Shown here piece by piece: positions 38,365-39,062 of a stretch of 64,000 nt of DNA (the first letter of the stretch is position 1; every line of letters begins with the position of its first letter). This stretch comes from Acidobacteriota bacterium (GTDB taxonomy: Bacteria; Acidobacteriota; Terriglobia; UBA7540). Made by a program: the position numbers and the translations under genes. Where the stretch lies: positions 1 to 64,000 of the forward strand of contig JAJYLL010000011.1 of NCBI GenBank assembly GCA_021787735.1, written 5' to 3'. The notes beneath the pieces were generated by a model. The model was not told the DNA's origin, did no database searches, and saw only the letters and a list, made by a program, of their open reading frames with translations.

Positions 38365-38456
38365 AGGTCCTGAATTACGATTAGATATCGTGCAAGCGAC
38401 GGTTCGCCGCGCCGTGTACATGTACTTACCATCAAGCGCAAGGGGGATCACGTTTC

Positions 38457-39062
38457 ATGTCAGAAACAGTCAAGCTCGGGCAGAAAGTTCCCGAAATTGA
38501 ACTTACTACTTACGAACCAACCACCAACAAATTTGGCAGTTTCAAGCTTTCCGACCAGGTTGACCAGAAGCGGTGGACGGTCCTGTTCTTTTATCCCGCA
38601 GATTTTACTTTCGTTTGAGCGACTGAATTCGCTGCTCTGGCAGAGCAGCATGAGCGCTTTGTGAAAATGGGCTGCGACATAATCACAGTCAGTACAGATA
38701 CGGAATTCGTCCACCTGGCGTGGCGCAAGAGTGAGAAAGAGCTGGCAAAGGTCCATTACCCAATGGCGGCCGATCCCACCGGAAATGTTTCAAGACTGTT
38801 TGGCGTTTACGATGAGAATACCGGACTCGCGCTCCGCGGGACATTTATCATCAACCCCGAAGGCGTGCTGGTGAACTCTGAAGTGAATTTCTACAACCTC
38901 GGACGCAACATTGACGAGTCGATGCGGAAGTTCAAGGCCAACGTTTATATGTCCCGGAAAACTTCCGAGGTTTGTCCCTCCAAGTGGAAAGACGAAGGCG
39001 ACAAGACCCTTACACCATCCGAGGCGTTGGTGGGCGCTGTCCACGAAGCCCTGCAAAATTAA
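38457..39062 (+). CDS. AhpC-type peroxiredoxin, probable selenoprotein (Sec54 encoded by TGA at 38616-38618)
   Basis: MSETVKLGQKVPEIELTTYEP...RWTVLFFYPADFTFV(TGA)ATEFAALAEQHERFVKMGCDIITVSTDTEFVHLAW...YPMAADPTGNVSRLFGVYDENTGLALRGTFIINPEG...SEVCPSKW; same frame before and after TGA; TGA aligns with Cys of FTFVCxTE. Confidence 0.85.
38631..38649 (+). promoter_or_regulatory. Candidate bacterial SECIS hairpin
   Basis: GCTGCTCT-GGC-AGAGCAGC, perfect 8-bp stem with a G-starting loop beginning about 20 nt after the TGA. Confidence 0.65.

Follow-up and report, generated by a model that had tools for sequence, protein, structure and literature searches.

A reading frame on the forward strand of a 64,000-nucleotide stretch of Acidobacteriota DNA (hereafter the window) almost certainly encodes a predicted selenocysteine (Sec)-containing typical 2-Cys peroxiredoxin of the AhpC/Prx1 group, in which an in-frame UGA would be read as Sec by means of a hairpin in the codons that follow it. 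Judged from its sequence, this gene, which we call Sec-AhpC, is a real selenoprotein gene and belongs to a subfamily that has no name yet but is of a kind already known. The features of the gene are summarized in Table 1.

Table 1. Features of the Sec-AhpC gene, numbered from the first nucleotide of the window.
Feature	Position	Strand	Details
Sec-AhpC coding sequence	38457..39062	+	ATG start; TAA end at 39060-39062; 201 aa via one TGA
Shine-Dalgarno-like AAGGGGGA	38440..38447	+	9 nt 5' of ATG 38457; from sequence
Pro47...Thr51 of the PxxxTxxC/U active-site motif	38595..38609	+	P47 and T51 invariant
Predicted Sec 54 codon TGA, peroxidatic position (PADFTFV-U-ATE)	38616..38618	+	TGA in 47 distinct Sec orthologues
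Predicted SECIS hairpin GCTGCTCTGGCAGAGCAGC	38631..38649	+	Fold; codons 59-64 without synonymous variation; blind 17-mer search
Resolving Cys 173 codon TGT (VCPSKW)	38973..38975	+	Invariant in 32-member alignment

Reading and translating the frame confirmed what the preliminary description had claimed, namely that the TGA at the position of the catalytic Cys is the sole in-frame stop before the terminal TAA and that the C-terminal resolving Cys (C173 in VCPSKW) is intact. The predicted readthrough product contains FFYPADFTFV-U-ATEFAALAEQ and, near its C-terminus, SEVCPSKWK. Automated annotation had been expected to miss the gene, and ORF calling indeed yields just a 133-aa fragment (38661-39062); the start codon of this fragment is GTG and not, as had been stated, an internal Met. 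When the window gene was compared with a relative from the same genus (L025), dN was 0.15 and dS 0.51 across codons 1-53, dN was 0.06 and dS 1.84 across codons 55-201, and the two genes differed at 20, 13 and 86 first, second and third codon positions, respectively. Together, these values indicate that purifying selection acts on the codons before as well as after the TGA.

The protein matches the Pfam domain AhpC-TSA (124.8 bits), and the closest solved structures by sequence are those of bacterial AhpC (best E 1.7e-47). An AlphaFold monomer model built from 32 family members (pLDDT 86, pTM 0.80) retrieved AhpC and 2-Cys Prx structures as its top PDB matches in Foldseek (E about 1e-21). In the alignment of the Sec-AhpC family, P47, T51, U54, R127 and C173 do not vary, as expected for typical 2-Cys peroxiredoxins with their PxxxTxxC/U active site and resolving Cys near the C-terminus. 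Sec-AhpC thus has the active site, conserved Arg, resolving Cys and thioredoxin fold that characterize the AhpC/Prx1 group.

We found all four genes of the Sec machinery for which a search had been proposed in the source genome, a draft of 4.87 Mb in 184 contigs that is 93% complete: selA (591 bits), selB (357 bits), selD (372 bits) and a tRNA-Sec gene (selC; 68 bits) with the anticodon TCA (UCA). The selD gene (L152, contig C172) carries an in-frame TGA of its own (VKAAG-U-AAKL), so SelD would itself be a selenoprotein, as is known elsewhere. Among the 34 other genomes with a member of the Sec-AhpC family, selA scored above its curated cut-off in 33 and was present as a fragment in the remaining one; the sole genome without any selA carries just a distant Cys relative (L097). 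A tRNA-Sec match over the cut-off can be found in each of the 23 genomes searched, with the matches in G002 and G061 being marginal (about 50 bits) and possibly representing other tRNAs. In G061, which is the genome of the Cys-reverted L081 and has a strong selA, the best tRNA-Sec match (50.9 bits) extends over an odd 128 nt stretch, and the tRNA-Sec of this genome is possibly unusual or missing.

Orthologues were sought with peptide patterns that avoid the active site and the hairpin. The 48 loci found in this way carry MAG labels of Acidobacteria, Rokubacteria, Methylomirabilota, Nitrospirota, Planctomycetota, Krumholzibacteriota, Binatia and others; such labels are fallible, and two near-identical loci (L054 and L057) bear different phylum labels. 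All loci that cover residue 54 have TGA there, except L081 (TGT), L090 (TGC) and the distant L097 (TGC). Together with genus relatives and matches to a 17-mer described below, these loci gave 47 distinct Sec orthologues from several phyla with 59-85% identity, in which the TGA aligns to the redox Cys of Cys homologues. Within the phylum the gene is uncommon: a protein search recovered it, or a piece of it, from about 12 of 396 Acidobacteriota genomes. Viral contigs yielded no Sec form of AhpC (11 of them carry a Cys AhpC), and plasmids yielded no close relative, with all matches falling below 60%. One relative, L126:1501-2103, is interrupted by TAG at codon 22 and again, prematurely, near its end; it has also lost the resolving Cys and has an unusually long perfect hairpin that includes a compensatory pair. 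Since the genes adjoining L126 contain no in-frame TAG, this locus is probably decaying rather than reflecting a change of code.

The hairpin comprises 8 bp in the window gene, with a 7-bp core (38632-38638 paired with 38642-38648) and a GGC loop (38639-38641) located 20 nt from the TGA. It agrees in every respect with the published model of bacterial SECIS elements (bSECIS; PMC13188914), which calls for a loop of 3-9 nt, a stem of 4-16 bp, a spacing of 16-37 nt, an MFE of at most -7.5 and a G at loop position 1 or 2, after which G or U usually comes next. The codons that form it (59-64; GCT GCT CTG GCA GAG CAG, encoding AALAEQ) are the only ones with zero codon entropy among the 145 columns with synonymous freedom in the 47 Sec genes, the mean over these columns being 1.15 bits. 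Given each gene's own codon usage, the log10 probability of the observed codons is about -230, a value uncorrected for relatedness. The 17-mer itself had led to five of the 47 genes, so these are non-independent with respect to codon freezing; the other 42 are independent. A blind search of the 396 Acidobacteriota genomes with this 17-mer, CTGCTCTGGCAGAGCAG, returned ten matches in ten genomes, once each, and all ten lie in a Sec-AhpC gene directly 3' of the TGA, while the reversed 17-mer, used as a control, had no matches.

The frozen sequence can be explained by the overlap of two constraints. Only 4 of the 1536 synonymous spellings of AALAEQ retain all seven Watson-Crick pairs, and these four differ only at a loop base, where every gene uses G. 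Each base pair connects a synonymous site with a base fixed by the amino acid, or two fixed bases, and the codons of AALAEQ also make the hairpin, which is why the RNA is frozen. The hairpin and the loop G suffice, and a sequence-specific site beyond them is unneeded. In three genes (L088, L091 and L093), the sole change in the hairpin is a G to U substitution at the second loop base (Ala to Ser), which the bSECIS model permits (PMC13188914). In L126, a U-A pair has become C-G together with a Gln to Arg replacement, as the pairing constraint predicts. Relative to the bSECIS consensus, this hairpin is distinguished by being sequence-frozen across phyla in one gene, because it overlaps with an invariant hexapeptide.

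A Cys codon replaces the TGA in L081, L090 and L127. The first two are nested inside the Sec clade, and the hairpin is absent from both; L081 still encodes AALAEQ, although with the codons GCA GCA CTT GCA GAA CAG. Both of their genomes retain selA, which indicates that these Sec-to-Cys reversions were not forced by the loss of selA.

We weighed three other readings of the TGA and the hairpin against Sec insertion. If the TGA were a true stop, the locus would reflect a pseudogene or an assembly error, or else its gene would start at the internal GTG at 38661, as the outcome of mechanical ORF calling and the partly degraded relative L126 might suggest. We regard this as extremely improbable, since selection is purifying on either side of the TGA, synonymous sites 3' of it are frozen, a Shine-Dalgarno-like sequence precedes the ATG at 38457, and 47 distinct genes, drawn from several phyla, carry the same TGA but are otherwise undamaged. 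Its recurrence in dozens of independent assemblies indirectly excludes sequencing error or decay, and the scattered inactivating mutations in relatives that would have spoken for decay are not seen in them. The UGA might instead be read as another residue such as Trp, through a changed code or near-cognate readthrough, and readthrough of UGA as Trp is established for some lineages. This has practically no likelihood here: every other AhpC relative has a redox Cys at this position, where Trp would abolish catalysis, the genome encodes the Sec machinery, and it is precisely the forms with Cys in place of Sec that have lost the hairpin.

It is also conceivable that the frozen 17-bp dyad serves chiefly as a regulatory site in DNA or RNA, such as an operator or a binding site, rather than as a SECIS element. 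It forms a near-perfect palindrome (CTGCTCTG-G-CAGAGCAG) in which no covariation occurs among 47 sequences, and most SECIS elements of bacteria vary from one gene to another. Coding and pairing alone, however, account for the missing covariation, and a compensatory pair does occur in L126. The position of the element fits the bSECIS rules (PMC13188914), Cys forms have lost it, and PrxU-type genes carry a different hairpin at the same place. A mainly regulatory role is consequently very unlikely, and a SECIS element that directs Sec insertion is the reading we prefer.

The Sec-peroxiredoxin PrxU of Peptoclostridium (Eubacterium) acidaminophilum is already known (Soehling et al. 2001, as cited in PMC13188914), which raises the question of whether Sec-AhpC is simply its orthologue. 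Both are 2-Cys Prx proteins of the Prx1/AhpC group with a UGA-encoded Sec (predicted, in Sec-AhpC) at the peroxidatic position (TFVU) and a hairpin directly 3' of the UGA, and they share 41% identity. Their hairpins differ in sequence, however (TTTCAGC-AGTT-GCTGAAA in PrxU and CTGCTCT-GGC-AGAGCAG in Sec-AhpC), and other PrxU-type genes mostly have a GGTC loop. On the PrxU model NF040737, Sec-AhpC scores 181.5 bits against a cut-off of 270, while PrxU itself (plasmid record L102) scores 408. In a tree of 81 rows, PrxU-type genes form one clade (100/99), the Sec-AhpC family and the Cys relative L127 form another (99/95), and Cys AhpCs are placed between the two. A tree constrained to unite the two Sec groups is worse by 11 log-likelihood units, which favours two origins of Sec, although the joined tree is not rejected (AU p = 0.129). 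We therefore consider orthology with PrxU unlikely. The earlier proposal of a Sec-containing AhpC-type peroxiredoxin is supported by the machinery, the recurring TGA and the SECIS hairpin, with the refinement that the tests run favour a separate AhpC-like clade for this gene over orthology with PrxU.

The AhpC proteins of Salmonella and E. coli (TIGR03137; PDB 1n8j, 4ma9) resemble Sec-AhpC in their fold, PxxxTxxC motif and C-terminal VCPxxW resolving Cys, with about 40% identity in structure alignment, but have Cys (CPTE) where Sec-AhpC has predicted Sec (UATE). Sec-AhpC reaches 187.3 bits on the AhpC equivalog TIGR03137 (curated cut-off 272), and its Cys relative L081 reaches 212 bits. Since the cut-offs of both the AhpC and PrxU equivalogs are missed, relatedness to these families does not specify precisely which substrate or partner the protein would use. 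Other Sec-containing AhpC/Prx proteins include the bacterial Prx family with a TxxU motif (PMC1794560, PMC13188914), the algal AhpC_a with TGGUT (PMC7539508) and an AhpC of Blastococcus with UAG-encoded Sec (PMC5330540), all of which share the AhpC/TSA domain (PF00578) and Sec at a redox Cys. By its motif alone (TFVU = TxxU), Sec-AhpC would be filed under 'Prx' in published catalogues. AhpC_a differs from Sec-AhpC in its TGGUT motif and belongs to a different subfamily. The two reviews searched mention neither Acidobacteria nor the Sec-AhpC clade in connection with Prx, and the open-licence papers searched do not describe this clade.

Further peroxiredoxin-like genes with in-frame TGA codons can be found in the source genome. 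One (L022:1459-1920, contig C100) has the TGA in LDFTPV-U-QNELSAF, and similar genes with TGA occur in many genomes of the order. Two tandem Bcp/PrxQ-like genes (L023:919-2028, contig C9) each contain a TGA, in LAFTGG-U-TQEL and YANTPG-U-AQEL, respectively; the motif of the first resembles TGGUT of algal AhpC_a.

By homology to AhpC/Prx1 proteins and from the anatomy and conservation of the gene, the following sequence of events can be proposed. The UGA would be decoded as Sec by SelB and Sec-tRNA(UCA), guided by the hairpin. The selenolate of Sec-54 would attack H2O2 or an organic hydroperoxide to give a selenenic acid, which Cys-173 of the partner subunit would resolve to a selenenyl-sulfide, and a thioredoxin-type reductant would probably reduce the latter. 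A full-length AhpF over the cut-off was not found in the draft genome (93% complete), the best match scoring 172 against 502.9 bits.

The source genome also encodes a homologue of the AhpF N-terminal domain (PDO-like) with an in-frame TGA in TPT-U-PHCP (L158:1468-2133, contig C58). Relatives of it occur in most genomes of the same family, nearly all with TGA, and Sec forms of this protein family have already been catalogued (PMC13188914). An electron relay from TrxR via L158 (TPTUPHCP) to Sec-AhpC was considered but is unsupported by co-occurrence: nearly every genome of the same family has an L158 relative, whether or not it has Sec-AhpC, and most other genomes with Sec-AhpC have none. No conserved operon was seen in general around Sec-AhpC genes. 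In the window, genes resembling gyrB and gyrA are the upstream neighbours, and the next gene downstream is on the opposite strand. In some Nitrospirota and Rokubacteria, and beside L127, the adjoining genes code for desulfoferrodoxin, a flavodiiron-like protein or a regulator of the Fur family; such neighbours hint at an oxidative-stress context, although not a general one.

There is perhaps an even chance that the family represents a second, independent replacement of Cys by Sec in AhpC/Prx1, one that is spread over five or more phyla, has a SECIS type of its own frozen by its interlock with an invariant hexapeptide, and has reverted to Cys at least twice in genomes that kept selA. With the predicted protein, a central antioxidant enzyme gains a selenoprotein subfamily that lacks annotation, in phyla known mostly via metagenomes (Acidobacteriota, Rokubacteria/Methylomirabilota, Nitrospirota, Planctomycetota and Krumholzibacteriota). 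Its genes are truncated by mechanical gene calling and fall below the cut-offs of the curated AhpC and PrxU models, and the 17-base sequence provides a near-specific marker for locating them. The hairpin offers a clean case of a recoding signal that constrains codons and protein alike, and the natural Sec-to-Cys reversions within the family provide a ready comparison for the benefit of selenium in a peroxiredoxin.
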